Positions 4,604 through 45,555 of a stretch of 64,000 nucleotides of DNA are shown piece by piece; the first letter of the stretch is position 1; every line of letters begins with the position of its first letter. The notes under the pieces were generated by a model. It ran no database searches. It had not been told where the DNA came from and saw nothing but the letters and a program-made list of their open reading frames with translations. A program made the translations under genes and the position numbers. The DNA comes from Brockia lithotrophica. Lineage in GTDB: Bacteria > Bacillota > Bacilli > Thermicanales > DSM-22653. The stretch lies in the NCBI RefSeq assembly GCF_003633725.1, contig NZ_RBIJ01000001.1, positions 255,934 through 319,933 of the forward strand, in the 5' to 3' direction.

Positions 4604-5905
4604 ATGGATGGAGGGGCGGACTACGCCCGCGCGGGAGACGAGGAGAAACCCGCGCGGGGCGCATCCGCAGGGAAAGAACGCGTCGTGCTCTTGGTGGACA
4701 TGGAGTCGTTTTTTGCCTCCGTAGAGGTGGCGGCACGCCCCGACCTCCGGGGGCGTCCGGTGGTCGTCGCGGGGGATCCCGAGCGGCGACACGGGGTCGT
4801 CCTCGCGGCCACGCGGGAGGCCAAGGCGTGCGGCGTTTCTACGGCGATGACGTTGGGCGAGGCGCTCCTCCTCTGTCCCGAGGCGGTCGTCGTACGCCCG
4901 CACATGGCCCGCTACCTCGCCACCTCCCTTCGGATCACCGCCCTTCTCGAGGCGTTTTCCGACCTCGTGGAACCGTACTCTATCGACGAGCAGTTCGTGG
5001 AGCTCACGCCGACCTTGCACCTCTTCGGAACGGCGGAATCCGCCGCGCAGGAGATCCGCCGACGCATCCGCGAGGCCACGGGCGTCAACGCCCGCGTGGG
5101 CATCGGCCCGAACAAGCTCACGGCAAAAATGGCCTGCGACGTGTACGCCAAAAAGATCCCTGAAGGCATATTCCGCGTCGCTCCGGGGAAGTTCGCCGAA
5201 GCCTTTTGGCATCGGTCGGTAGAAGATCTCTTCGGCGTCGCCCGCCGCCTCGGCGCCCACTTGCGAGGCATGGGGATCCGCACGATCGGCCAGCTCGCCC
5301 AAACGCCCGAAGAGCTCCTCCGCCGCCGGTTCGGCAAGCTCGGGGTGCGCCTTCACCGGTACGCCAACGGCATCGATCCTTCTCCCGTAGACCCTTCCCT
5401 GGTGTGGCGGCAAAAGGGGGTAGGGCGGGGGATCACCCTCCCGCGCGATTACCGGGAAGGGCGGGACGTGGGAATCGTGATCCTCGAGCTCGCCGACGAG
5501 GTGGCGCACCGCGCCCGCGCCTTGGGTGTCCTCGGGAACGTCGTCGGCGTAGGGATAGGGGGCGCCTACGGCCTAGAGGTGCGGCACGGGTTTTTCCGCC
5601 AGATGCACCTGTCCGTGCCTACGCGTTCCCCGACGGAAATCGCCGCGGCGGCCCGCGCCCTCTTTCGTCGCCATTGGTCGGGGTTCCCCGTGCGCCACGT
5701 GTCCGTGTTCCTCGGCGGGCTTTCCACCGACGACGTCTTCCCCCTCGAGCTCTTTCGGGATCGGGTGCGGGAGGAAAGGGTGTACCAGACGCTGGACTTC
5801 ATCTGGGAGCGGTTTGGCCGGGCAAGCCTCGTGCGCGCTTCTTCCCTCACCCCGGCGGGACAGGCGCGGGAGCGCGCGCATAAGATCGGCGGACACGAGG
5901 CGTGA
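4604..5905 (+). CDS. Y-family (translesion) DNA polymerase, UvrX/DinB type
   Basis: An error-prone polymerase that copies past damaged template bases. The 433-residue protein begins with a ~25-residue charged tail, then palm motif VDMESFFASVE (first metal ligands), the second metal motif YSIDEQFVELT, GIGPNKLTAKMA in the thumb region, and a little-finger domain in the C-terminal third. YSIDE rather than the DinB-type SLDE, together with the YolD-like gene just downstream, favours the Bacillus UvrX/YqjW branch over classical Pol IV. ATG 4604 is chosen because GGAGGG lies 6 bases upstream. The LexA box at 4543 indicates SOS control. Confidence 0.88.
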   Translation: MDGGADYARAGDEEKPARGASAGKERVVLLVDMESFFASVEVAARPDLRGRPVVVAGDPERRHGVVLAATREAKACGVSTAMTLGEALLLCPEAVVVRPHMARYLATSLRITALLEAFSDLVEPYSIDEQFVELTPTLHLFGTAESAAQEIRRRIREATGVNARVGIGPNKLTAKMACDVYAKKIPEGIFRVAPGKFAEAFWHRSVEDLFGVARRLGAHLRGMGIRTIGQLAQTPEELLRRRFGKLGVRLHRYANGIDPSPVDPSLVWRQKGVGRGITLPRDYREGRDVGIVILELADEVAHRARALGVLGNVVGVGIGGAYGLEVRHGFFRQMHLSVPTRSPTEIAAAARALFRRHWSGFPVRHVSVFLGGLSTDDVFPLELFRDRVREERVYQTLDFIWERFGRASLVRASSLTPAGQARERAHKIGGHEA

Positions 5906-27172: not shown

Positions 27173-27835
27173 GTGGACGAAGAGGTACTTTCCCTCCTCG
27201 CACGCGTCCTCGAGGAAGGCGCCGTGAGCGTTCCCGTCGCCCTCTTCCGTCACTACGCGAAACTCGGCCTAGACGAAGAAGACGTAGTGCTCCTTCTCCA
27301 CCTCCTCGTTTTCCGCCACGAGGGGGACCCCCTCCCCTCGCCGCGGGTGTTGGCCTCTGTGACGACCATGGCCGAGCGGACCATCGCCGAACGTCTCCGC
27401 TCCCTCGTAGACCGAGGCTTCCTCGCCATCGAACGCCACGAGGAGGAGGGTGCGCTCTTCGAAGGCTACTCCCTCCACCCCCTCTACCTTCGCCTCGCGA
27501 CCTCCTTGGCGGGCGAGGTTCGCCCGGCCTCCCTCGTCGACCGCCTCGAAACCCTACTCGGACGTCCCCTCTCCGTCACGGAAATCGACCTCCTCGCCAC
27601 CTGGCGGGAGGAAGGCCGTGAAGACGCCGAGATCCTCCGCGCTACGGAGGAGGCGGTGGCGGGTGGCGTCCGCTCGCTTCGCGAAGTCGATCGGTTTTTG
27701 TCGCGGCCGCCCGCTTCCGCGCGTGCGCGCGGCATACCGGCTTCCGACGCGAGGAGACCCGAAGTGCGCGAAGTCCCGCGGCTCGTCCAGTACAACTGGC
27801 TGGAGGCGGATGACGACGACGAGGAGGAATTCTAA
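27173..27835 (+). CDS. dnaD: DNA replication initiation/restart protein DnaD
   Basis: DnaD helps open DNA and load the helicase at the origin and during PriA-dependent restart in low-GC Gram-positive bacteria. The 220-residue protein has the N-terminal winged-helix oligomerisation domain (SVPVALFRHYAKLGLDEEDVVLLLHLL; TMAERTIAERLRSLVDRGFL) and the C-terminal DnaB_2 domain with LLGRPLSVTEIDLLATWREEG, then a disordered tail ending YNWLEADDDDEEEF. GTG 27173 follows GAGGGGAGGGTGG. It is close to the usual ~230 residues. The expected nth gene does not follow; a terminator does. Confidence 0.92.
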   Translation: MDEEVLSLLARVLEEGAVSVPVALFRHYAKLGLDEEDVVLLLHLLVFRHEGDPLPSPRVLASVTTMAERTIAERLRSLVDRGFLAIERHEEEGALFEGYSLHPLYLRLATSLAGEVRPASLVDRLETLLGRPLSVTEIDLLATWREEGREDAEILRATEEAVAGGVRSLREVDRFLSRPPASARARGIPASDARRPEVREVPRLVQYNWLEADDDDEEEF

Positions 27836-27911
27836 AGGACTTCGGGCATCTGGGGAAAGGCAGATCCCGCGGCTTCGCCGTTTCCGAGGCTGTCGGAGGA
27901 GGAGAGCCTTG

Positions 27912-27936
27912 CGGCGGCGAAAGCCGCCGTTTTTTG
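27912..27936 (+). terminator. Intrinsic terminator after dnaD
   Basis: CGGCGGC, tetraloop GAAA, GCCGCCG, then TTTTTTG: a 7-bp perfect stem with a GNRA loop and six T residues. It closes the mtaD-dnaD group. Confidence 0.92.
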
Positions 27937-28057
27937 TTTGCGCAGAACTCGTTTCTGCAAGTCAATGTTAGCTTTGACCTCTCCTCACGTTGTGTAGGCT
28001 TTCATTCTTAGCTCGCTCGTACCAAGTCATAAGTTCAATAATTCACAGAATGTTCAT

Positions 28058-28085
28058 TTGACAGCTCGTCCGCGGGCCGTATAAC
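28058..28085 (+). promoter_or_regulatory. Promoter upstream of the pilus locus
   Basis: A consensus TTGACA (28058-28063), a 16-base spacer and TATAAC (28080-28085). It is the only clear promoter before the pilin genes and is followed 18 bases later by a Fur-like palindrome. Confidence 0.7.
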
Positions 28086-28102
28086 GGGAATCGGGACGGT
28101 AA

Positions 28103-28117
28103 AGAGAATCATTCTCG
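28103..28117 (+). promoter_or_regulatory. Fur-family box candidate
   Basis: GAGAAT-C-ATTCTC (28104-28116) is a perfect 6-1-6 palindrome. Extended by one base on each side it agrees with the 7-1-7 Fur consensus TGATAATnATTATCA at 10 of 14 positions, and it lies in the early transcribed region, a place where a repressor would act. It could also be a site of a Fur relative (PerR, Zur). Confidence 0.45.
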
Positions 28118-28232
28118 GAGAGAACGGCCGAATCCGCCCGTCCCCATCGCAGGGTACGGGTACCATTCGGGTATCCGCCCGCCGGCGTTCGTGGAGCGTC
28201 GGAAAGGGGGTCGCCGTCACAAGGGGAGAACG

Positions 28233-28484
28233 ATGGCGCACACGCACGAAGCGGTCCTCGCCAAGATTCGCGAGCTGTACGAAGAGCTCTTCTTCCACGA
28301 CGGCTACGGGGAGATGCGCATCGAAATCCGCATCCTCAAGCGCGGCCAGAAAGAGGTGATCCTCCACTGCGGCAAGCAGTACCGCTTCGTGGTGGATTAC
28401 CCCTATGCGGGAAAGGCCAAGCTTGCGGGCACAGCGGACGCCTCCTCCGGCGCCTCCTCTCTGGAAGGACCAGAAAGGGGGTGA
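28233..28484 (+). CDS. Small protein of unknown function upstream of the pilin
   Basis: An 83-residue soluble protein, not recognised. The N-terminal two thirds look folded: a helix (THEAVLAKIRELYEELFFHDG), then two or three strands (GEMRIEIRILKRGQKEVILHCGKQYRFVVDYP); the last ~25 residues are Ala/Ser/Gly-rich. ATG 28233 has AAGGGGAG 5 bases upstream, and codon use is like its neighbours. It is the first gene after the promoter and Fur-like box, 142 bases before the pilin, so it may be cotranscribed with the pilin and could have a regulatory or assembly role. That is inference from position only. Confidence 0.65.
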   Translation: MAHTHEAVLAKIRELYEELFFHDGYGEMRIEIRILKRGQKEVILHCGKQYRFVVDYPYAGKAKLAGTADASSGASSLEGPERG

Positions 28485-28626
28485 TGGCCAAGAAAGCGTG
28501 CGACGTGGCCGCGGGCGCGGGGTCCGGGCCGAATTCCGTGGTGGCGGTAAGGTAAGAGGAGGTGGCTCTGCGGGGGAGCCCTTCTCACGCGTCGGGAAAA
28601 TTCGACCTACGAGGAGGGCCGCGCAC

Positions 28627-29112
28627 ATGCGGGAAAAGGTGCAGAAGCTCTATCGGCGCCTTCGAAAGGACTCGGGCGGGTTCACGTTGATCGAACTCCT
28701 GATCGTCATCGCGATCATGGGCTTCTTGGCTGCCATGATCGTGCCGCGCCTCGCGGGGATTGCGGGCGGGGCGTCGGACACGGTCTGCGACAACAACCAG
28801 ATGCGCCTCCGGGACGTCCTGGCGGCGTACACGGAAAGCCGGGAGGCGCTGCCGGACAACCTTACGAGCCTCGTCGTCCACGAGGCAAACGGCAACCCCG
28901 TCGATCCTACGACGCAGTATGACTTCGGAAAGGAAATCGGCACGGGCTGGTACATCGACGACAACAACAAGGGAACGGGGCAGGAGGTCCTCTCCAAGGA
29001 CTTTTACGCCATGACCAAGATGGGGCTCGTCAAGCTCTCTGCGGAGGAGGCGAGCGAGCTCAACCAGCTCGGCATCAACAACGTCTTCTACCTCTCTTCT
29101 ACCTCAATGTGA
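28627..29112 (+). CDS. Type IV major pilin-like protein, 5' part (frame broken by an 11-bp duplication)
   Basis: A prepilin with a class III signal: an 18-residue basic leader ending in Gly-Gly, then FTLIELLIVIAIMGFLAAMI with Glu5 of the mature protein; a prepilin peptidase would cut before Phe. After ~160 codons the frame ends at TGA (29110-29112) immediately after an exact tandem duplication of TCTTCTACCTC (29084-29094 and 29095-29105). Removing one copy joins ...NVFYL to NVNKDVKDMDF in the downstream frame, giving one 347-residue pilin. As it stands the product is a truncated pilin of 161 residues. GAGGAGGG lies 11 bases before the ATG. The gene could be phase-variable, recently mutated, or affected by a sequence error. 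Confidence 0.85.
   Translation: MREKVQKLYRRLRKDSGGFTLIELLIVIAIMGFLAAMIVPRLAGIAGGASDTVCDNNQMRLRDVLAAYTESREALPDNLTSLVVHEANGNPVDPTTQYDFGKEIGTGWYIDDNNKGTGQEVLSKDFYAMTKMGLVKLSAEEASELNQLGINNVFYLSSTSM
29084..29105 (+). repeat. Exact 11-bp tandem duplication in the pilin gene
   Basis: Two adjacent identical copies of TCTTCTACCTC. Eleven is not a multiple of three, so gaining or losing one copy switches the pilin between a full-length and a truncated frame. Confidence 0.97.
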
Positions 29113-29681
29113 ACAAAGACGTCAAGGACATGGACTTCGTGGGGAACGACGTGAAGAAGCTGAACGACGGCATACCCACCCACGCAGCCGGTGTAAACGA
29201 CTTCATGACCCCCGTTAAGGTTGCGGACGGGACGTACGTCCTTGCCGTGGGCTATGCACATGACGGGACCACGGGCAAGCTCACGATCGCCCAAAATCAA
29301 AAAATCGGCCACCCCGACCTCATCGGGCGCATCGTCCTCGGCGTCGGCCCGAACAGCGACCTCGTGAAGGAGGGCCTCATCCAGAAGTCCGGGATGTGCC
29401 CGAACGGGATGAAGCGCGCCGACCACTTCCTCTACAACAACTACAACGTCGTCGTCCCGCGCCTTGCGGCGACGAGCACCGCCCTCGTGCAGGCGCTCGG
29501 CGGGACGGAAAAGGTGACCCTTACGTTCACGAACGAGCGCACGAAGGAGACGAAGACCGTCGAGATTCGCGCGGACGAAGCCGAGCCCCTCTGGTCTGTG
29601 ACGACCTTCTGCCCCGAAGGGGACGTCCCGGGAGGCACGGGCGAACCTGTCTGGGTACTGACGAACGTCACAGCCCAGTAA
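29109..29681 (+). CDS. Type IV major pilin-like protein, 3' part (out of frame with the 5' part)
   Basis: A 190-codon frame starting at a GTG that overlaps the upstream stop (GTGA). It has no signal peptide, no N-terminal helix and no ribosome site of its own, but it looks like the globular C-terminal domain of a pilin: it begins NKDVKDMDFVGNDVKKLNDG, contains two cysteines that may form a disulfide (SGMCPNG and TTFCPEG, as in the D-region of type IV pilins), and ends in a terminator. Deleting one 11-bp repeat unit fuses it in frame to the 5' part. Translation by re-initiation at the overlapping GTG is possible, but the product would not enter the pilus on its own. Confidence 0.75.
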   Translation: MNKDVKDMDFVGNDVKKLNDGIPTHAAGVNDFMTPVKVADGTYVLAVGYAHDGTTGKLTIAQNQKIGHPDLIGRIVLGVGPNSDLVKEGLIQKSGMCPNGMKRADHFLYNNYNVVVPRLAATSTALVQALGGTEKVTLTFTNERTKETKTVEIRADEAEPLWSVTTFCPEGDVPGGTGEPVWVLTNVTAQ

Positions 29682-29698
29682 GCACGCGCAAGGCTCGT

Positions 29699-29726
29699 GG
29701 GGCGGGGAAACCCCCGCCCCTTTTTT
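29699..29726 (+). terminator. Intrinsic terminator after the pilin gene
   Basis: GGGGCGGGG, a 4-base loop, CCCCGCCCC, then TTTTTT. It lies between the abundant pilin and the assembly genes and would let only part of the transcripts continue, a usual way to set pilin above machinery. Confidence 0.92.
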
Positions 29727-29749
29727 GAGGAACGACAGGAGGGATGTGC

Positions 29750-31006
29750 GTGCGGAGGCTCCTCGAACGCCTGCGGGCCGGGGATCCCGCAGAAGGGCTC
29801 CTCGTCACCTTTGCCTTCGTGTTTCCGCTCTTCGTCCTTCCCCACCCGATCGCCTTTTCCGGGGGCCGGTTGGACTACTTCTACGCCCCCCGCTTCGTCC
29901 TTTTGGCCCTGTTTTCCTTTGCGGCGGCCTTCCTCCTTTTTCGCCGCGGCGTGCGCGTGTATCCGGGGAAGTCCCCCGCCCTTTGGCTTCTTCTCGTTTT
30001 TTTTACCTTCGGCGTTGTGGCGACGTCGATGGCACCCTATCCCTCACTCGCCTTTTGGGGAGCTAACTTTCGCTACACGGGGTTGGCCACGTACCTCCTC
30101 AGCTTCCCCCTCTTTCTCTTGGCTGCCCTCGTAGGCCGAAATGCGTCGGCCGTAAAGGCCCTCGTCCTCGCGGGCGCCACGGCTTCGGTCCTCGCCCTTG
30201 CCCAGCTTCTCGGCCTTTCTCCCGTGCCGCACGAGCCGTACCGGAGCGGGATGACCGCATACGCCACGCTGGGGTCGGCGGAAAACCTGGGGGCCTTTCT
30301 GGGCTTCGCCTTTCCCGCTTCCCTTTGGGTTGCCCTAACCTCAGAAAGGCGGCGTGGGCTTTGGGTCGGGGCCGCGCTCTTCGTCTGGGTCGGGCTGCTC
30401 GTGACCTTGGATTGGCCCGCCTGGACAGGTGCGCTCTTCGGCACCGCCGTCGTCCTCCGGGATCCCGAGGTGCGGCGGCTTCCGCGGAAGTCCCTCGTCG
30501 CGTACGCCTCGGCCTTCGCCTCGGCCACCCTCGCCTTTCTCGCCGGCCTGTGGTTTACCCCACTTGCCCAAGTCGTCGGCTGGCTCCCGCCGTCGGAGTT
30601 TTGGTCGGTATGGGGGAAGGTCCTCCGCCTGTGCCGCGCATGCTGGGCTTGGGGGTTGGGACCCGACCACCTCACGGTCGTTGTTCGGCAGATGCCGTGG
30701 CTCGGGTTTTGGGACAAGACGCCAAGTATGTACCTGGAAACGCTTGTGACGATGGGGGCCTTTGCCGCGGTGACCTACTTCGCCTGGATCGTCGCCGCCC
30801 TCCGGCACGCAAAGGGGGAGCTCGTGGCTTTGGGGGTTTCGTACCTCGTGACGGGGCTGTACCATTCCGAGATCTTGCCCCTGCTCCCCTTGTTTTGGGT
30901 CGTTCTCGGGTTTGCCTCCGCGTCCAAGGGAATCGTCAGCGTCCGCTCGACCGTCGTCGAGAGCGAAGGCGGCGATCCTCCCGTTCGGATCGAGGTCGTC
31001 TCCTGA
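29750..31006 (+). CDS. O-antigen-ligase-like integral membrane protein (possible pilin glycosyl transferase)
   Basis: A 418-residue protein with about 10-11 membrane segments. The overall plan (short N-terminal segments, a mid region with SAENLGAFLGFAFPASLW, a periplasmic loop with WGLGPDHL and DKTPSMYLETLVTMGAFAAVTYF, a short cytoplasmic tail) fits the Wzy/WaaL/PglL superfamily; the SAENLGAF and TPSMYLE blocks sit where family members have GTFxNPN and HNxxLE. Set inside a pilus locus, it is a candidate for the O-oligosaccharyl transferase that glycosylates the pilin, as PilO/TfpO or PglL do in Gram-negatives. GTG 29750 is preferred to ATG 29744, which touches AGGAGGG. Function is inferred. 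Confidence 0.65.
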   Translation: MRRLLERLRAGDPAEGLLVTFAFVFPLFVLPHPIAFSGGRLDYFYAPRFVLLALFSFAAAFLLFRRGVRVYPGKSPALWLLLVFFTFGVVATSMAPYPSLAFWGANFRYTGLATYLLSFPLFLLAALVGRNASAVKALVLAGATASVLALAQLLGLSPVPHEPYRSGMTAYATLGSAENLGAFLGFAFPASLWVALTSERRRGLWVGAALFVWVGLLVTLDWPAWTGALFGTAVVLRDPEVRRLPRKSLVAYASAFASATLAFLAGLWFTPLAQVVGWLPPSEFWSVWGKVLRLCRACWAWGLGPDHLTVVVRQMPWLGFWDKTPSMYLETLVTMGAFAAVTYFAWIVAALRHAKGELVALGVSYLVTGLYHSEILPLLPLFWVVLGFASASKGIVSVRSTVVESEGGDPPVRIEVVS

Positions 31007-31049
31007 ATTTCTCCGCCCGCAACGCGGATCTCCGGGGAGGGGAAGGCTT

Positions 31050-32723
31050 GTGCCGCGCGCGTTTCGATCCGACACGGGGATGAGCCTCCTCGAGGTCGTC
31101 ATCTTTCTCGTCATCCTCGGGTTTCTCACGACGATGATCGTCCCCTTTGCCGGAGCGATCGGGGATGCGGAAAAGGAAAAGGCGACGTGGAAGGCGATGC
31201 AGGACGTAAAGAGGGCCATCCTCGGCCCCGAAGGCGCCTACGACGAAAGAGGGCGCCGAATCCTTCGCGGCTACGTGGGCGATGTAGGGGCGATCCCGGA
31301 GCTCTACACCTTCGCCTTCGTCCGCGACGCCCGAGGCGGCGGCCTTTGGAAACCGACTTGGAATCCGGGGAACGGCGCCGAGCACCTCCTCGAGGACGGG
31401 GCAAAGATCGCGCAGCCGCGCGCTCTGTGGGAAAAGCCGGACCCGAGCCTTGGGGACGTCGCACCTCTTTGGAAGGGTCCGTACGTAGACCTTTCCAAGT
31501 CTCCCGTGACCCCCCCGACGGGTGCCCCTCCCATCCGCTACGGGGACGGCGTTCTGCACGACGCCTGGGGGCGTCCCCTCCTCTTCTTCAAGGTGAAGGA
31601 TGCGAAGGGCGGCGTGTGGCTGTTCCTCGTAAGCGCCGGCCCCAAGGGGGTGGTACACGATCCCCCGTTTACTTCCGACGGTTCGCCCGTGGAGTGGGGG
31701 GATCCCGCCACTCCCGGGACGTGGGAGTACTTCAAGGCGCAAAACGCCAAACACCGGCTTCTCATTCTCGGGATCTCTCCTGAAGAGTGGGAGCACGTAA
31801 ACCTCCCGCAGGAAACCGCGGACACAGAAGGGTTGCTCCGGCAGCTGAAAGCGGCGTTCTTCGGAGCAGAAGCCTATGACCCGGCCGGAAATCGCTTCCT
31901 CCGCGGATTTCTCGGCGACGTTGGAAAATGGCCTCCTCTGTACGCCTGGGATCCCGACGTGCGGACATGGGTTTCGCCTACGGGGGCACCCGGAGAAGTC
32001 GTCCAGATGCCCGGACTTTGGGATCACGAGTATGCGGGTCTTCCTCAGACCTTCGCTCCTGGCTTCGCCTGGAGGGGGCCCTACCTCTCGCCTCCCAAAG
32101 ACGTCCTCCGTGACGCTTGGGGTACACCGCTTCGGTTTGTTCTCGTAGACGAGGGCACGTCAAACGAACGTTTGGTCGTCACCTCCGCAGGGCCCGACCG
32201 CGAGTTCGACACGGAGGACGACCTCCGCTTGGAGATCGCGAAGGCGGATTGGAACGTCGAAGGGTTTACCTTGGAGTTCCGCCTTTTGGACGGAAGGCCG
32301 GCTCTGCGGACGCCGCGCCCGAATCCCAACGATCCCGAATTTGCCGACCAGTCCAGGTACCGGTGGAGGTGGGTGTACGAACAGGGCACGGATGCCGCCG
32401 GAAATCCCGTGGACGTCTACCGCGTAGAACCCCAGGAAATCTCCGTGAACATCACGGTGAAGATATACGCCGCCGATGACGCCTCGGTCGCCCCGCGGGA
32501 GATCCTCGTTTCTGCCGTTCTCCCCGGCGGGGACCAAACGGAGGTCCCCCTCGTCGTGAGTCTTCCCGCGGGCTCCCCTCTGCCCGCGGGAAAGCGCAAG
32601 GTCGCCTTTGCGCTTTCGGCCGGATCGGGAACGCTCCTGCCCGAGGAAACCTGGGTGTACGTCGGTCCCGGGGGGACGCAGGCTCCGCTTCCCGAAAAGC
32701 TCGCGGTGACGTACAGACCGTAA
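31050..32723 (+). CDS. Large prepilin-like protein with two GspG-like domains in tandem
   Basis: A 557-residue protein with a class III prepilin signal: short basic leader, Gly, then MSLLEVVIFLVILGFLTTMI with Glu5. Two similar blocks follow. Block 1 (~45-205) contains GAYDERGRRILRGYVGDVG, LWKGPYVDLSK, LHDAWGRPLLFFKV and FLVSAGPKG; block 2 (~270-400) contains EAYDPAGNRFLRGFLGDVG, AWRGPYLSPPK, LRDAWGTPLRFVLV and VVTSAGPDREFDTEDD. The D-x-W-G-x-P-L...S-x-G-P-D series is the C-terminal signature of GspG pseudopilins. A ~130-residue beta-rich C-terminal domain completes the protein. GTG 31050 follows GGGGAGGGG. It may be a minor pilin or a tip adhesin. Confidence 0.8.
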   Translation: MPRAFRSDTGMSLLEVVIFLVILGFLTTMIVPFAGAIGDAEKEKATWKAMQDVKRAILGPEGAYDERGRRILRGYVGDVGAIPELYTFAFVRDARGGGLWKPTWNPGNGAEHLLEDGAKIAQPRALWEKPDPSLGDVAPLWKGPYVDLSKSPVTPPTGAPPIRYGDGVLHDAWGRPLLFFKVKDAKGGVWLFLVSAGPKGVVHDPPFTSDGSPVEWGDPATPGTWEYFKAQNAKHRLLILGISPEEWEHVNLPQETADTEGLLRQLKAAFFGAEAYDPAGNRFLRGFLGDVGKWPPLYAWDPDVRTWVSPTGAPGEVVQMPGLWDHEYAGLPQTFAPGFAWRGPYLSPPKDVLRDAWGTPLRFVLVDEGTSNERLVVTSAGPDREFDTEDDLRLEIAKADWNVEGFTLEFRLLDGRPALRTPRPNPNDPEFADQSRYRWRWVYEQGTDAAGNPVDVYRVEPQEISVNITVKIYAADDASVAPREILVSAVLPGGDQTEVPLVVSLPAGSPLPAGKRKVAFALSAGSGTLLPEETWVYVGPGGTQAPLPEKLAVTYRP

Positions 32724-32741
32724 GAAGGGGAGGTGGAGCAC

Positions 32742-34538
32742 GTGCTCTCCGTCCTCGCATTGGAAGTCGCAGAGCGCAAAGTGCGCGCGGCCGTAGTGCG
32801 GTGGAGTCCGACCGGGATGCGCGTCGACGTGTGTACTTCCCTCGATCGCGAAGGGGCGGCGGGACCTTTTCCCGAAGGCGAGGAGCTCTCGTCCGTCCTT
32901 CGCCGCTTGCCCTTCCGTCCCCGCAAGGTCGTCCTGGTTTCCCCGGCGGTGACCACGGTGGAGGTGTCCGTAGACCGCGTTCGCCTCCGGCGCCTTCGTG
33001 GCGCTCAGCTGCGGGAGGTCCTCCGCTGGGAGGCGGAACCCTTTCTTCCCGCGCCGCCCACGGACTACTTCCTCGGCTACGCGAGGGGACCCGAGAGCGA
33101 AGACGGACGGGTGGTCTTTTGGGTTTCCGCCCTCTTGCGCGACGAGTACGCGGCACTCCGTACCGCGTTTGCCGAGCGCGGACTCAAACTTGGCAAGGTC
33201 TTCGCCCCAGAGTTTTGCTTCCCAGTGGGAGGCGCCCTGGGATTCCGCGGCCGGAAGTTCCGCGACCTCCTCGTGGCGGAGGTGGGGGAAGACGCTGTCC
33301 GCTTTGCCCGCTTCAGGAAGGGGCAGGTATACGCCCTGTACGTCCCCCCGCCAGAGATCGCCGCCCCGCTCCTCACCTTCCTCGCCGCTTCCGCAGGATC
33401 TTCTGAAGTCTCCCTGGAAGTAGGGGGGACAGGTTCGTCCTTCCCCCTTCCGTCCGATGTCGCCGCACCCCTCCGGGAGGCCCTCGCGATTCGGGGGATG
33501 CTCGGCCTTCCCGTGGCGTTGGTCGGTTCCTCCGACCTCCGAAGAGAAGGGGGTTCGCGCACGGCCGCCCTGCTCGCCCAACTCCTAGGGGCCGAGGGCG
33601 TGTACGTTCCCGCCTGGGTGCGGGAGGGATGTGGGGCAGAATTCGCCGCGGCGGTAGGCGGGGGGGTGCGGCAGCTCAGCCTCCGCGGCGCGGACCGTGC
33701 GATCGGCGTAGACGACCTGGAAGAGCGCGTGGCGCGCATGCGCGAGAGGATCCAGCTGTACCCGCTCTTGGCCACGTTGGCCGTAGGGCTCATCTTCGGC
33801 GCGCACTACCTGGTCGTACGGGAGCAGCTCGCCCGTGTACAGGCGGAAATCCAAAGCCTCGAGGAGAAGAAGCAGGAAATCGACGCGGCCCAGGCGCGTC
33901 TGCAGGAACTCAAGAAAGAGGCGGAAACCCTGCGCAAGAAGGTTCAAGCGGTCGAGGCACAAACGGCCTTTCTCCAGGAGACCTACCGAACGGAGGAAGA
34001 GCGGATCCACCGCCTCCTCAAGGTGGTGGCGGAAGACCCCGAAATCTTCGTCGACAAGGTGAGCAAAGTCCCCCCTCCGCCCGTAACCCAGAAGGACAAA
34101 AAGCCCGCCTCCTCCCCTACGGTCGATAAAGACAAGAACACTGCTCCTTCCCCATCGACCGACAAAGACAAAAATACCGCTTCCCCTCCGGCTACCGAGA
34201 AGGACAAAAAGGAATCCTCTCCGCCTACGACCGAGAAGGACAAAACCGTCCCTGCGCAAAAGAAGCAGCAGGTTCCCCAAGATCCGTACCCGCCCGTCGA
34301 TCCTTCGGAAGCGGAGAAAGCGTACCGCGTCGGGGGGTGGAGCCTCACCCTCGAAGGGATCCACCGCCTCCTCCTGCGCTACCAAATGCAGCCGTGGTGC
34401 CAGTACGTCCGCTTGGATCTCATGAAGTCGGATAAGGTCCGAGTGCCCCGGGAAGGGCCGACGGAGGAGGGGAGAGCCCCCGTCTTTGAGGAGCGCCCGG
34501 CCTACACCTTTGTACTCACGGTAGTCTTCAAGGAATAG
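32742..34538 (+). CDS. Fused PilM-PilN (GspL-like) pilus assembly protein
   Basis: A 598-residue inner-membrane platform protein. Residues 1-~310 look like the actin-like PilM domain (LSVLALEVAERKVRAAVVR; LREVLRWEAEPFLP; VSALLRDEYAAL), one membrane segment lies at ~338-358, then a coiled coil (~360-430), a low-complexity stretch with four 12-residue repeats ending in KDK (454-501) and a PilN/GspL-like C-terminal domain. PilM and PilN are usually separate genes; the fusion resembles type II secretion GspL. GTG 32742 has GGGAGGTGG 6 bases upstream; GTG 32733 lies inside that site. pilO follows 12 bases later. Confidence 0.78.
   Translation: MLSVLALEVAERKVRAAVVRWSPTGMRVDVCTSLDREGAAGPFPEGEELSSVLRRLPFRPRKVVLVSPAVTTVEVSVDRVRLRRLRGAQLREVLRWEAEPFLPAPPTDYFLGYARGPESEDGRVVFWVSALLRDEYAALRTAFAERGLKLGKVFAPEFCFPVGGALGFRGRKFRDLLVAEVGEDAVRFARFRKGQVYALYVPPPEIAAPLLTFLAASAGSSEVSLEVGGTGSSFPLPSDVAAPLREALAIRGMLGLPVALVGSSDLRREGGSRTAALLAQLLGAEGVYVPAWVREGCGAEFAAAVGGGVRQLSLRGADRAIGVDDLEERVARMRERIQLYPLLATLAVGLIFGAHYLVVREQLARVQAEIQSLEEKKQEIDAAQARLQELKKEAETLRKKVQAVEAQTAFLQETYRTEEERIHRLLKVVAEDPEIFVDKVSKVPPPPVTQKDKKPASSPTVDKDKNTAPSPSTDKDKNTASPPATEKDKKESSPPTTEKDKTVPAQKKQQVPQDPYPPVDPSEAEKAYRVGGWSLTLEGIHRLLLRYQMQPWCQYVRLDLMKSDKVRVPREGPTEEGRAPVFEERPAYTFVLTVVFKE
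34101..34244 (+). repeat. Four degenerate 36-bp repeats inside the PilM-PilN fusion gene
   Basis: Four consecutive 36-base units (from 34101, 34137, 34173 and 34209) encode 12-residue repeats of the form xxxSPxTxKDKx ending DKDK or EKDK. The unit is a multiple of three, so copy number can vary without breaking the frame; it gives a flexible charged linker outside the membrane. Confidence 0.9.
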
Positions 34539-34550
34539 GGAGGAATCGGG

Positions 34551-35129
34551 GTGCTGAAGCGGCCGCTTTCGAGGACGGAAAAGCTCCTTCTGGCCGTGCT
34601 CGTCTTGGGCGTGGGGATTTTCGCCTACCTCCGGTACGTGTACGACCCCATCCTCCGGACGTACGAGGAAAGCCGGAATCGCCTGCAGGAACTTCGGCAG
34701 GCGGTGTCAGGCGCCCAAATTCCTTCGACTGCCGCCGTGCAAAAGGAGATCGACGCCCTCAAAGAGGAGCTCAAGCGCAAGGAAGAGGAGCGCGAGAAAT
34801 CCCTCGGAGGAAAACTCCGCGAAGGCGGCGATGTCGCGTTGGCCGTCGCGGAGGTGTACGAGTTGGCCCGACGCTACCATGTGGAACTCCGGGAGGTGAT
34901 CCTCAAGCAAATCGAACCGGGCAAGGAAGACGCCCCCCCGAACAAGCCGCAGGAAGCCTTCACCTGGCGGGTGTACGAGTTCGCCGTCTCCGGGAGGACG
35001 CAAGACGTGGCGGAGTTCGTCCGATCCTTGTCCGAAAGGAGGTACGTGGTGTACCTCGAGAATTTCGAAGCAAAGCCCGAGAAGAAGGACGATGCGCGGT
35101 TTCAGGCTCGTCTCAAACTCCTTTTTTGA
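34551..35129 (+). CDS. pilO: PilO-like pilus alignment protein
   Basis: A 192-residue bitopic membrane protein: one N-terminal membrane segment (~11-30), a coiled coil (~35-90, EIDALKEELKRKEEEREKS) and a ferredoxin-like C-terminal domain (VYEFAVSGRTQDVAEFVRSLSERRYVVYLENFEA). The plan and position after PilM-PilN match PilO/GspM, which pairs with PilN to link the inner-membrane platform to the pilus. Sequence conservation in PilO is weak, so the call rests on topology and context. The start is GTG 34551 behind GGGAGGAATCGGG. Confidence 0.75.
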   Translation: MLKRPLSRTEKLLLAVLVLGVGIFAYLRYVYDPILRTYEESRNRLQELRQAVSGAQIPSTAAVQKEIDALKEELKRKEEEREKSLGGKLREGGDVALAVAEVYELARRYHVELREVILKQIEPGKEDAPPNKPQEAFTWRVYEFAVSGRTQDVAEFVRSLSERRYVVYLENFEAKPEKKDDARFQARLKLLF

Positions 35130-35147
35130 CGGAGAGGGGGAGGCAGG

Positions 35148-36248
35148 GTGGAAGGGGGTTTCGCCCGTCCGTCCGAAAAGCGAATACCCGCGCACATTGA
35201 GGAGCTCCTTCGGGAGACCCAAGAGCGCGAGGCTACGGACCTTCACCTCACGGCGTTTTCTCCTCCAATCCTGCGCATCGGCGGATACCTCACGCCCCTG
35301 GAGGAATACGCCGCATTGGGCCCGGAAGACATCCGGAACCTCGTCTATCCGCTTCTCAGTTCGCGCCAACGAGAGGTTCTGGAAGAACGCCTTTCTGTCG
35401 ACCTCGCCGTGGGCTTGGCAGGAATCGGACGCTTCCGACTGAACGTGTACTACCAGAGGGGGAGCTTGGCCTGCGCCTTTCGGCGCCTCGCGGACGAAAT
35501 CCCCAAGTTGGAGGAGCTCGGCCTGCCCGAGTCCGTGTACCGCTTCCCCGACCTCACTTCCGGCCTCATCCTCGTCACGGGGGCCACGGGTTCCGGGAAA
35601 TCCACCACGCTTGCCGCGATCATCGACCGGATCAACGAAAAGTACCGCCGACACATCATCACCGTAGAAGACCCGATCGAGTACGTGCACTACAACAAGC
35701 TGAGCGTGATCAACCAACGGGAGCTCTATACGGACGTCCCTTCGTTTGCGGACGCCTTGCGGGCGGCCCTTCGGCAGGACCCGGACGTGATCCTCGTGGG
35801 GGAGATGCGCGACCTCGAAACCATCCGCACGGCGATCATGGCGGCGGAAACCGGCCACCTCGTCCTCTCCACGCTTCACGCCCGGGACACGATTTCCACC
35901 TTCGCACGGGTGATCGGCGTTTTCCCTACGGAAGAGCAGGCCCAGGTCCGTCAACAACTCGCGGCTTCCGTTCGGGCGGTAATCGCCCAGCAGCTCCTTC
36001 CGCGTCGGGACGGGAAAGGGAGGGTCCTTGCGGCGGAAGTCCTCGTCGTAACGCCGGCGGTCGCCAACCTCGTGCGCCTGGGAAAGGACGAGCACATTCG
36101 CCTCATCCTCGAGACGGGTGGAAGGCTGGGGATGCAGACGATGGAACAGAGCCTGGTGGAGCTCGTCCAAAAGCGGCTGATCGACGTGGAAACGGCCCTG
36201 GCCGCCGCGCGGAACCCCGCCCTGGTCAAGGAGAAATTGGCCCTGTAA
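35148..36248 (+). CDS. pilT: Pilus retraction ATPase PilT
   Basis: PilT is a hexameric ATPase that pulls pili back and powers twitching motility and DNA uptake. The 366-residue protein has a PAS-like N-terminal domain (ATDLHLTAFSPPILRIGGYL), Walker A GATGSGKST (~145), the Asp box HIITVEDPIEYVH (~170), a Walker B region RQDPDVILVGEMRD (~208), the His box TGHLVLSTLHARD (~233) and the PilT-type AIRNLIREG region replaced here by ARNPALVKEKL. GTG 35148 is preceded by GGGGGAGGCAGG. Its presence implies retractable pili rather than a static secretion pseudopilus. Confidence 0.94.
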   Translation: MEGGFARPSEKRIPAHIEELLRETQEREATDLHLTAFSPPILRIGGYLTPLEEYAALGPEDIRNLVYPLLSSRQREVLEERLSVDLAVGLAGIGRFRLNVYYQRGSLACAFRRLADEIPKLEELGLPESVYRFPDLTSGLILVTGATGSGKSTTLAAIIDRINEKYRRHIITVEDPIEYVHYNKLSVINQRELYTDVPSFADALRAALRQDPDVILVGEMRDLETIRTAIMAAETGHLVLSTLHARDTISTFARVIGVFPTEEQAQVRQQLAASVRAVIAQQLLPRRDGKGRVLAAEVLVVTPAVANLVRLGKDEHIRLILETGGRLGMQTMEQSLVELVQKRLIDVETALAAARNPALVKEKLAL

Positions 36249-36272
36249 GCGGCCCTCGAGGGGGGACGGACG

Positions 36273-37898
36273 TTGGCCGTCGCACGCTCGCGCTTCGGCG
36301 AATTCCTCGTCGCCTCCGGAGCCCTCAAACCCGAAGAACTCGCCGCGGCTTTGCGCCACCAGCGGACCAGCCAAAAACGTCTCGAGGAGGTCCTCTACGA
36401 ACTCGGAATCCTGCCCGAAGAGCGCCTCGTGGAACTCGTGAGTCGCTTCACGGGGTTCCCCGTGTTTTCCTTCGACGAGGTGGAACTCACACCCGAACTC
36501 CAACAGCTCGTGCCGGTCGCCCTCATCCGTCGGTACGACGTCTATCCGGTCCGCGCGGACGAGGGCGAGCTGTACCTCGCGTGCCGGGGGGAAGTTCCTT
36601 CGGGCGTCGTAGAAAACCTCCGGCGCATGACGGGGAAAAACGTGCGCCTCGTGCTCATGCGCCCTAGCGAGCTCGAGGAGCTAAGGAAATTCTTCCTCCA
36701 AGGGGAAGGGGAAGGCCCCGTTTCGGAAGGTGGGGAGGGGGGGTCGGCGGCCGACGTCCTCGACGCCATCCTCGCCAAGGCGGTGCACTTGGGCGCCTCG
36801 GACGTCCACCTCGATCCGGAGCCCGACCGCATCCAGGTCCGCTTCCGCATCGACGGATTTCTCCGCCCCGTCGACCAGTTCCCCCTGAGCCTCCATTCTG
36901 CCCTCGTGTCCCGCATCAAGGTCCTCGGACGGATGAACATCGCGGAAAAGCGGTCTCCGCAGGACGGCGGGTTCACCTTTCGTCCCGAAGGGGGACGCAC
37001 GACCAACGTCCGCGTTTCCGTCCTACCCTCGGTGCGCGGCGAGAAGGTCGTCATGCGCCTTTTGCCCTCTCAGGAGAGGATTCTCGAGCTTAAGGATCTG
37101 GGCATGGAGGGCGAACTCTTAGAGAAGTTCACCCGCCTCCTCGCCCTTCCCCACGGCCTCATCCTCGTTACGGGCCCCACGGGCTCCGGTAAGACGTTCA
37201 CCCTCTACGCGGCGCTCAAGCACCTCCGCCGTCCCGAAGTGAACATCATCACCGTCGAGGACCCTGTCGAGCTGCAGATGGAGGGGATCACCCAAGTTCA
37301 GGTGGACGTCACCTCGCGCAAGCTCACCTTTTCCGACGCCCTTCGCTCCATCCTCCGCCAGGATCCGGACGTCATCATGGTCGGGGAGATTCGCGACCGG
37401 GAGACGGCGCAGCTCAGCCTGCAGGCGGCGCTCACGGGACACCTCGTCCTCTCCACGCTCCACACGAACGATGCGGTGAGCGCGGTGGAGCGGCTCACGG
37501 ACATGGGCGTAGAGCGCTACCTAATCGCCGCCGCCTTGCGCGGAGTTTTGGCCCAGCGCCTGGTGCGGACGATTTGCCCGCGCTGCCGGGTTCCCGTTCG
37601 TCCTCCCCTCGGCGAGTTTCTCGCGCTGGGGCTTAGCCCGGAAGACGAAGGGGAGTTCTTTGCGGGGAAGGGGTGTGTCTACTGCCACCAGTCCGGATAC
37701 CGCGGCAGGACGGGGATTTTTGAGCTTTTGGTCGTGGACGAGGAACTCCAAAAGCTCATCGCCGGCGGGGCGGACGCGATCTCGCTCAAGGAGGCCGTCG
37801 CCGGGAAGATGAAGACGATGCGCGAAGACGGGATCGAAAAGGCAAGGCGCGGGATCACCACCTTGGAGGAGGTGATCCGTGTGACGGTGAGCATGTAG
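36273..37898 (+). CDS. pilB: Pilus extension ATPase PilB (GspE family)
   Basis: PilB powers pilin assembly. The 541-residue protein has the GspE N-terminal MshEN domain (FGEFLVASGALKPEELAAAL), HLGASDVHLDPEPD (~172), Walker A GPTGSGKT (~301), Asp box NIITVEDPVE, Walker B RQDPDVIMVGEIRD (~366), His box GHLVLSTLHTNDA, and a zinc-binding insert with CPRC...CVYC (~431-471) that distinguishes PilB/GspE from PilT. The start is TTG 36273 behind GAGGGGGGACGGA. It lies 24 bases after pilT in the same transcript. Confidence 0.95.
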   Translation: MAVARSRFGEFLVASGALKPEELAAALRHQRTSQKRLEEVLYELGILPEERLVELVSRFTGFPVFSFDEVELTPELQQLVPVALIRRYDVYPVRADEGELYLACRGEVPSGVVENLRRMTGKNVRLVLMRPSELEELRKFFLQGEGEGPVSEGGEGGSAADVLDAILAKAVHLGASDVHLDPEPDRIQVRFRIDGFLRPVDQFPLSLHSALVSRIKVLGRMNIAEKRSPQDGGFTFRPEGGRTTNVRVSVLPSVRGEKVVMRLLPSQERILELKDLGMEGELLEKFTRLLALPHGLILVTGPTGSGKTFTLYAALKHLRRPEVNIITVEDPVELQMEGITQVQVDVTSRKLTFSDALRSILRQDPDVIMVGEIRDRETAQLSLQAALTGHLVLSTLHTNDAVSAVERLTDMGVERYLIAAALRGVLAQRLVRTICPRCRVPVRPPLGEFLALGLSPEDEGEFFAGKGCVYCHQSGYRGRTGIFELLVVDEELQKLIAGGADAISLKEAVAGKMKTMREDGIEKARRGITTLEEVIRVTVSM

Positions 37899-37931
37899 GG
37901 GAAATAGGGAAACGGAAGGGGGTGCATCGGG

Positions 37932-39164
37932 GTGCCGCAGTTTCGCTACCGGGCGCTCGACGCCGGCGGTCGGGCAATCCGCGGGGAGGTTACGGCCGCC
38001 GATCCCTCGCAAGCCGCATCTCTGCTTCGGCGGCAGGGCCTCCTCGTAACCGAACTTCGAGAGGAAACCGACGCGCGGCCGCGCCCGCAGGAGGAGGGGG
38101 GCCTTTCGGGTTGGGTTCCCGTGCGCCAAGGGGACGTGCTCCTCACGCTCAAGCAGCTCGCCTCCCTCCTCCGCGCCGGGGTGTCGTTGTCTGTATCCCT
38201 TTCGGTGTTGGAACGGCAGACGCGGAACGCCCGGCTCCGCCGGATTTTGCGGGAAGTCCGCGAGGCGGTGGAAGGGGGGACCCCCTTGAGCGAAGCGCTG
38301 GCGCGCCACCGCGTCTTTCCCAAGTTGGTTTCAAGCCTCGTACAGACGGGCGAAACAAGCGGGTTGCTCGACGTATCCCTCGAGCGGGCGACGCGGTATT
38401 GGGAAGAGCGAATGGCGCTCCGGCGGCGAATTCTCTCGGGGGTTCTTTACCCGGCGATCGTCTTCGTCGCGGCCATTGGGGAGGCGGTCTTCCTCATCGC
38501 CTACGTGATCCCCAAGATCCTCCCCCTCCTCCAAGAACTCGGGGGCGAGCTGCCCTGGAATACCTTGCTTCTCATCCGCATCGGGGAAGTGGTTCCGCCC
38601 AACTTGCCCAAGATCGGCCTGGCGGCGCTCGCCCTTGTGGGGTTTGGAGTTTTGTCCTTCCGGGTACCTTCGCTGCGCTACTACGCGGAGCGCGTCCTCT
38701 TTTCCCTCCCCGTTCTCGGGGAAATCTTGCGGTACTCGCTCATCGTCCAATTTGCGACGACGATGGCCCTCCTCCTCCAAAGCGGCGTTTCCATGCTCGA
38801 GTCGCTTCGCGCCACGCGGGAAACCATCGGGAATACCGTCCTTCGGGGTCTCCTTTCGGAGATGGAAGCGGCCGTCTTGGAGGGAAAGGGTCTTTCCGAA
38901 ACCCTTCAGTGGCCCCAGGCGGGTGCCCTCTTCCCCCCCATGGTCGGAAGTATGGTACAGGTAGGGGAGGAAACCGGAGGGATCGATGGAGCCCTGGAAA
39001 TGCTCGCCGGAGTGTACGGGGAGCTTCTCGAGACCAAGATCGCCCGAGCGCTGTCTTTGCTCGAACCGATGCTCCTCGTGGTCATGGGAGGAATGGTGGC
39101 GTTCGTGGCCTCCGCGCTCATCGGGGCCGTCCTCGCGAGCTACGGTGCCATCTCCCACCATTGA
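37932..39164 (+). CDS. pilC: Pilus inner-membrane platform protein PilC (GspF family)
   Basis: PilC is the polytopic membrane protein that couples the ATPases to pilin assembly. The 410-residue protein starts FRYRALDAGGRAIRGEV, typical of GspF, and has two T2SSF domains (~65-190 and ~270-395) with LKQLASLLRAGVSLSVSLSV and the repeated FATTMALLLQSGVSMLESL, each followed by a membrane segment, three in all. Conserved QTGETSGLLD and QVGEETGGID occur in the two halves. GTG 37932 follows AAGGGGGTG. It is the last recognised machinery gene of the operon; no prepilin peptidase follows. Confidence 0.95.
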   Translation: MPQFRYRALDAGGRAIRGEVTAADPSQAASLLRRQGLLVTELREETDARPRPQEEGGLSGWVPVRQGDVLLTLKQLASLLRAGVSLSVSLSVLERQTRNARLRRILREVREAVEGGTPLSEALARHRVFPKLVSSLVQTGETSGLLDVSLERATRYWEERMALRRRILSGVLYPAIVFVAAIGEAVFLIAYVIPKILPLLQELGGELPWNTLLLIRIGEVVPPNLPKIGLAALALVGFGVLSFRVPSLRYYAERVLFSLPVLGEILRYSLIVQFATTMALLLQSGVSMLESLRATRETIGNTVLRGLLSEMEAAVLEGKGLSETLQWPQAGALFPPMVGSMVQVGEETGGIDGALEMLAGVYGELLETKIARALSLLEPMLLVVMGGMVAFVASALIGAVLASYGAISHH

Positions 39165-44634: not shown

Positions 44635-45555
44635 TTACTCTTTTCGCGCGTCCGCATCCCCGTGCGAGTTCGGCGTTCTTCGGAGGATGGGAGAGAAAAT
44701 TCGAGTGAAAAGAAAGAGCAAGATCTTCCGAACCGCCGCAAGGAGTCGGAAGGCGAAGGTGTCGTTTCCCTCCGAATGCGGGAGGGAAGAGGTTTCGTCC
44801 GGCGGAAGGGTTTCTTCGTGCGGCGCCGCCCCGGGTTCGTTCCTCCCTTCGACTTCCGATTCCGGGGTGAGGGGAGGGCTTTCGGGCGGTGAGGCTGGGC
44901 TTGCCTCGGAGATGAGGGGCGCATCCGTTGGTGGCGGGGCGGGCGTTTCTTCGGAGGCGAGGTCGAGGGGGCCACGGTGTACGTCTAGGCATACGCGCCC
45001 GGTGATCCCGTCGATTATGCCGGAGCACGTGTACTGCCAAAACGTCCAGTTCTTCCACGCCCCGAGCGGCTCCGAGGGAGCGCGATCCCAAGAAGCGATC
45101 CAGAGGGGGTACCTTTCAAACTGCGGATCGCCGAGGTACTGCACGACAAACGCGGGGAAGGAGTACACCACCGGACGAAGGGTGCGGTTGGATACGTACT
45201 CGAGCCACGCCAAGACCGCCTCTCGAAAGGCCACGGGATCTCCGGTGGGCGGAATTTCGACGTCGAGGGCCGGAGGAAGGGTGAGGCGAAAGTCGGCGGT
45301 TTGCCCGAGGAAAAACTCGGCTTCCGCCCGCGCTTCTCCGACGGACTTTGCGCGGAAGAAGTGGTAGGCGCCCACGGCGAGCCCGGCTTCCGCGGCCCTC
45401 GAGGCGTTTTCCGCGAAGTAAGGGTCGCGAAACGTCGTCCCTTCCGTAGCCTTTACGTAGGCGAAGCTCAGTCCTTGGGCGGCGACGCGCCGCCAGTCGA
45501 TCGCTCCCTGCCAATTGGACACGTCGAGCCCGCGAGGACGTTCGTTTTCCCCCAT
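44635..45555 (-). CDS. GH25 lysozyme (muramidase) without signal peptide, with hydrophobic C-terminal segment
   Basis: A glycoside hydrolase family 25 muramidase. The 306-residue protein starts at the barrel: GLDVSNWQG (first catalytic-site aspartate, ~11), YVKATEG (~33), GAYHFFR (~63), ALDVEIP (~98, catalytic Asp/Glu pair), WTFWQYT (~165). A ~65-residue Pro/Ser/Glu linker leads to a C-terminal hydrophobic, basic helix (LLAAVRKILLFLFTRIFSPILRR, split here as LLAAVRKILLFLF and TRIFSPILRR). No signal peptide is present. ATG 45555 has GGAGGGAA 8 bases upstream. It pairs with cwlC as a two-enzyme lysis cassette. Confidence 0.88.
   Translation of the reverse strand: MGENERPRGLDVSNWQGAIDWRRVAAQGLSFAYVKATEGTTFRDPYFAENASRAAEAGLAVGAYHFFRAKSVGEARAEAEFFLGQTADFRLTLPPALDVEIPPTGDPVAFREAVLAWLEYVSNRTLRPVVYSFPAFVVQYLGDPQFERYPLWIASWDRAPSEPLGAWKNWTFWQYTCSGIIDGITGRVCLDVHRGPLDLASEETPAPPPTDAPLISEASPASPPESPPLTPESEVEGRNEPGAAPHEETLPPDETSSLPHSEGNDTFAFRLLAAVRKILLFLFTRIFSPILRRTPNSHGDADARKE

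Follow-up and report, generated by a model that had tools for sequence, protein, structure and literature searches.

The window analyzed here, a stretch of 64,000 nucleotides of the Brockia lithotrophica genome, carries on its forward strand a type IV pilus operon in which the pilin gene lies as a 5′ part and a 3′ part in different reading frames. The features of the operon are as follows, in window coordinates.

The pilin gene and its operon

28236-28484, + strand: small conserved ORF (82 aa) upstream of the pilin
28611-28618, + strand: Shine-Dalgarno-like GAGGAGGG, 8 nt before the pilin ATG (sequence)
28627-29112, + strand: 5′ portion of the pilin gene, encoding the prepilin N-terminus (GFTLIEL) and half of the globular region (the first), with a premature TGA after 161 codons
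29106-29681, + strand: 3′ portion of the pilin gene, read in the −1 frame and recognized by codon usage and by similarity to the corresponding half of the G709 pilin
29699-29720, + strand: terminator-like strong hairpin with a T-run, directly 3′ of the pilin gene
29744-31006, + strand: membrane protein (420 aa) between the pilin and the large pilin-like gene, kept in three of the four syntenic relatives
31047-32723, + strand: large pilin-like protein (about 558 aa) with a prepilin N-terminus, presumably a minor pilin
32733-34538, + strand: PilM-like protein, a weak assignment (NF045709, E 2e-4, below cut-off)
34551-35129, + strand: 192-aa protein, placed at the PilN/PilO position by its location
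35148-36248, + strand: PilT-family retraction ATPase, intact (TIGR01420, 446 bits, above cut-off)
36273-37898, + strand: PilB/GspE-type assembly ATPase, intact (T2SSE Pfam match)
37932-39164, + strand: PilC/GspF-type platform protein, intact (T2SSF Pfam match); its 3′ tail survives in the sister species

The broken gene was identified as a type IV pilin by its prepilin cleavage/methylation motif, by its location with genes for PilB, PilC and PilT homologues and by synteny of the operon in four relatives. The 5′ part matched PF07963 N_methyl (E 8.8e-9) and scored above the cut-off of TIGR02532. A hairpin similar to that at 29699-29720 was also identified 3′ of the pilin gene of G709, the closest of the relatives compared (L023, about 11705-11675). 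The hairpin at 29699-29720 probably raises the level of pilin mRNA over that of the rest of the operon, as an attenuator that would set the ratio of pilin to machinery mRNA. The early position of the gene together with the downstream hairpin suggests extra pilin mRNA and thereby that the gene encodes the major pilin.

Three further genes of the operon drew attention. The first 56 aa of the small ORF at 28236-28484 were 73-88% identical in three relatives, a conservation above that of the pilin itself; searches of Pfam and NCBIfam gave no match, and the ORF may represent an unrecognized part or regulator of the pilus. Pfam and NCBIfam also gave no match for the membrane protein at 29744-31006, and a part in modifying pilin can only be guessed at. 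The 558-aa pilin-like protein is unusually large and contains an apparent internally repeated segment (ILGPEGAYDERGRRILRGYVGDVG / FFGAEAYDPAGNRFLRGFLGDVG).

An exact duplication in a pilin gene that is intact in relatives

The pilin reading frame breaks at an 11-bp sequence, TCTTCTACCTC, that is present twice, exact and head to tail.

29084-29094, + strand: copy 1 of the 11-bp unit TCTTCTACCTC (sequence, tandem-repeat count)
29095-29105, + strand: copy 2 of the 11-bp unit TCTTCTACCTC, absent from the homologues (DNA alignment)

The original prediction had read two adjacent identical copies at the point where the pilin frame ends, and both are there in the window sequence. The ORF from the ATG at 28627 reads across both copies and ends at the TGA at 29110-29112, which gives the predicted truncated form of 161 aa. 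Downstream of the break the −1 frame is open to 29681; this frame is open from 28923 and encodes 190 aa from the GTG at 29109. The gene coordinates of 28627-29681 given originally are correct. A codon-usage model trained on the same contig assigned coding to the 5′ frame until about position 29090 and to the −1 frame from there, with the best single frame-switch point at 29091-29096, within the duplication. The reading frame of the pilin is thus set by the number of repeat units. An insertion of 11 bp is not divisible by three, so ribosomes would pass out of the pilin frame where the duplication lies and terminate at 29110-29112, and the 161-residue product would lack the conserved C-terminal half. 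Structure prediction from an alignment of four rows only gave a mean pLDDT of 34, too low to support a fold for the fragment.

Orthologous operons were located only by searching the phylum with the 558-aa pilin-like neighbor as a marker. This analysis identified four genomes, and the pilin was one uninterrupted ORF in all four. Ten relatives were compared in total, found by synteny or by similarity, and all belong to other families or phyla. The pilin ORF was uninterrupted in nine of them (G709, G614, G595, G626, G804, G832, G836, G801 and Geobacter UBA2189, a MAG); the tenth homologue, on L027, encodes a protein identical to that on L112 of G870, reads through the junction and ends at the contig edge. 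Searches with the 3′ half identified no orthologue in the same genus, the same family or 399 genomes of the class, and none that was confirmed in a wider contig collection; the search of the 399 class genomes returned one weak match (E 0.001). Matches to P0001 within the genus and family were pilin N-termini of other loci, those in G001, G002 and G004 lying near other pilus ATPases.

G709 encodes an uninterrupted pilin of 346 aa, to which the 5′ and 3′ halves in the window are 66% and 60% identical, respectively. The matches of the two halves abut on the G709 gene (L023, 12305/12304). At the DNA level the window and G709 sequences aligned collinearly, and the single length difference near the junction was an 11-bp gap at the repeat. 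The gap was also present in alignments with G804, G832 and G836, together with further gaps in their more divergent flanks, and no tandem repeat was detected at the junction site in the pilin genes of the relatives examined. The gap in the relatives and the lack of a repeat at their site indicate that the duplication is a derived insertion into an intact gene, and these alignments support the one-copy pilin as the ancestral form. The single ORF in relatives, the switch in codon usage and the 11-bp gap against G709 point to one broken gene and not two. The comparison with relatives proposed alongside the original prediction therefore bears out its view that the two parts belong to a single interrupted pilin gene.

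The fate of the operon was different in the sister species (G001), where DNA matching 27816-39070 of the window was missing and the genes that flank the operon were close neighbors. Directly after the upstream gene, roughly 100 bp from the pilC 3′ end were retained as a deletion scar (L178, about 5333-5450). This remnant was identical to the window at 85 of 101 positions and its translation is GGMVAFVASALIGAVLASYGAI. The pilC tail indicates that the ancestor of the genus had the operon and that the sister species lost it by deletion.

Tandem duplications on the contig

We examined how unusual such duplications are on C1, the 859-kb contig of the genome that carries the locus, using Markov and codon-block shuffles as null models. 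Four exact 11-bp tandem repeats were observed, compared with means of 0.38 (Markov) and 0.25 (codon-block). For tandem repeats with a unit of at least 11 bp, the count was nine compared with 0.5-0.75 in the shuffles. Among the exact C1 repeats of at least 10 bp, the pilin repeat alone splits a clearly coding gene, as judged by a codon signal on both flanks. At the others, the coding signal was weak or absent on at least one side, the repeat adjoined a gene end, or, at 44715, the repeat lay inside a gene with a strong frame that remained open across it. A chance origin of the pilin repeat was ruled out by the shuffles and by this coding context.

Overall, C1 displayed an excess of about tenfold over the shuffles in exact tandem duplications of at least 11 bp, most of them in regions of weak coding signal and including units of 35 bp present three times and 42 bp present twice. 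Tandem duplications of this kind on C1 of this genome (G000) include:

666803-666909
73367-73451
186191-186212
398231-398252
526394-526415

Since short tandem duplications are more numerous than expected by chance, duplication and loss may be frequent in the Brockia genome, and this may count against reading the pilin allele as a simple loss.

Loss of the pilus or a reversible switch

We consider it probable that a recent exact 11-bp tandem duplication, which slippage could in principle revert, has broken one type IV pilin gene, probably that of the major subunit in a PilT/PilB/PilC operon, and that this state is better explained by loss of a dispensable pilus than by a maintained switch. The caveat entered in the original prediction, a recent mutation in a single isolate, thus explains the locus better than the switch it proposed. 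Most likely, no pilus would be made from the operon in the sequenced genome; the population may also include ON cells, as a minority or a majority. The break appears young, as the other operon genes and the 3′ half of the pilin gene are intact. Given the operon deletion in the sister species, the pilus appears to be dispensable and in the course of being lost in the genus, and the broken pilin is in line with that. Loss of one unit by slippage would restore the frame, so reversion is possible in principle, and precise slippage between the two copies could undo the break at low frequency.

The original prediction was of a possible ON/OFF switch. In true phase variation, slipped-strand replication would turn the two-copy allele (OFF) into the one-copy allele (ON) and back often enough for selection to maintain them. 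The mechanical part of the prediction holds: a unit of this length breaks the frame, its two exact copies lie side by side, and the remaining operon genes are intact; a switching locus would likewise show a 3′ half without further damage. In-gene tandem duplications are also known to give reversible phase variation of the pneumococcal capsule (PMC4243769, PMC2995930). Its claim of reversible switching is doubtful. There are only two units, and no relative carries a repeat at the site, unlike a maintained contingency locus; two units, with no tandem repeat in the homologous loci examined, do not amount to a hypermutable multi-unit tract shared by relatives. Deletion of the operon in the sister species is at least as compatible with gene loss as with a switch. 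In pneumococcus, an insertion of nine bp is expected to revert at a rate of about 1e-5 or less (PMC4022640), and remaking the same 11-bp duplication from a single copy should be much rarer. As the one-copy allele offers no repeat to slip on, regain would be the rarer event and the switch would run mostly one way. According to a recent review, a locus is called phase-variable if there is variation at that single locus, reversibility and a minimal switching rate, with both states in one population (PMC11868660); for the pilin repeat, single-locus variation is plausible. We therefore regard true phase variation as unlikely, and equally doubtful is its wider form, a type IV pilus of an environmental bacterium, outside the host-associated bacteria, that is switched by one 11-bp unit in a minimal two-unit repeat with both states maintained in nature.

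An error of sequencing or assembly, with one copy in the real genome, would agree with the single copy in the relatives but is less likely still. Any ordinary read covers an exact repeat of 22 bp, and base-calling errors do not typically add a tandem copy of 11 bp. The duplication lies on an 859-kb contig, in an assembly that is 99% complete in 12 contigs. We also compared 212 orthologues with the sister species G001, in which six split alignments were flagged and all six were inspected. Most were at gene starts, where upstream non-coding DNA was included in the sister ORF call; another reflected two small indels in a variable loop, and a further one had no alignment at the inspected place. 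Genuine frame breaks are therefore rare in this comparison and the assembly looks sound. A naturally split pilin, with two proteins coupled through the GTGA overlap at 29109-29112 in the manner of Geobacter PilA-N/PilA-C (GSU1496/GSU1497), is very improbable. As in Geobacter, two neighboring ORFs encode the N- and C-terminal parts of a pilin; geopilins have the closest solved N-terminal regions, and the start/stop overlap is the sole hint of coupling. In Geobacter, however, the cut follows the helix and PilA-C is a separate protein with its own signal peptide (PMC5174107), whereas the Brockia cut is at about residue 157, far past the N-terminal helix, and the 3′ ORF lacks a ribosome site, a signal peptide and any stretch of strong hydrophobicity. 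The top 15-residue hydropathy in the first 60 residues of this ORF was 0.97, compared with 3.04 in the 5′ half. Two separate genes were rejected on these grounds and because the relatives, a Geobacter one included, all carry a fused gene; the break, moreover, coincides with an exact duplication. The least probable account is programmed −1 frameshifting that joins the two frames in translation. The second frame is indeed −1 relative to the first, with an overlap of 187 nt, but the overlap contained no X XXY YYZ heptamer, its RNA structure was not unusual (z −0.02) and the protein is encoded in one frame in the relatives. This candidate was ruled out, as no slippery heptamer with downstream structure kept in relatives was found.

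The consequences of a recent loss of function and of switching differ. If only the broken allele exists, the operon probably yields no working pilus, and one pilin would be annotated as two genes. If one- and two-copy cells coexist, the locus would be a simple and testable case in which an environmental bacterium phase-varies a surface fiber. In both events it would illustrate cleanly, in nature, how a short exact duplication silences a costly surface structure, beside a sister species from which the operon was deleted.

Spontaneous sequence duplications within capsule genes lead to reversible capsule loss in pneumococcus (PMC4243769, PMC2995930), and silencing of cap3A, cap8E and tts by in-gene tandem duplications is attributed to Waite et al. 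(2001, 2003) where these are cited in PMC4022640 and PMC4243769. The Brockia pilin carries a duplication of the cap3A/tts type: in-gene, exact, head to tail and frame-breaking, with one copy in relatives. As in the capsule genes, a gene for a costly surface structure is thrown out of frame by an exact duplication inside it, and precise loss of a copy would restore the frame. The Brockia case differs in that it concerns a type IV pilin of a non-model Bacillota bacterium and is known from one two-copy sequence. Slippage at an in-gene repeat would toggle expression here as at the Neisseria pilus contingency loci, which contain simple-sequence repeats; however, the Neisseria tracts consist of many short units and are hypermutable (PMC11868660), whereas the Brockia repeat has two 11-bp units and no counterpart in relatives. 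A frameshift in one type IV pilus gene of a strain that otherwise works also has a parallel in propagated strains, as in Synechococcus elongatus PCC 6301, where pilN was lost by a SNP described as causing a frameshift (PMC9239245); in the Brockia pilin, in contrast, the lesion is an exact 11-bp duplication.
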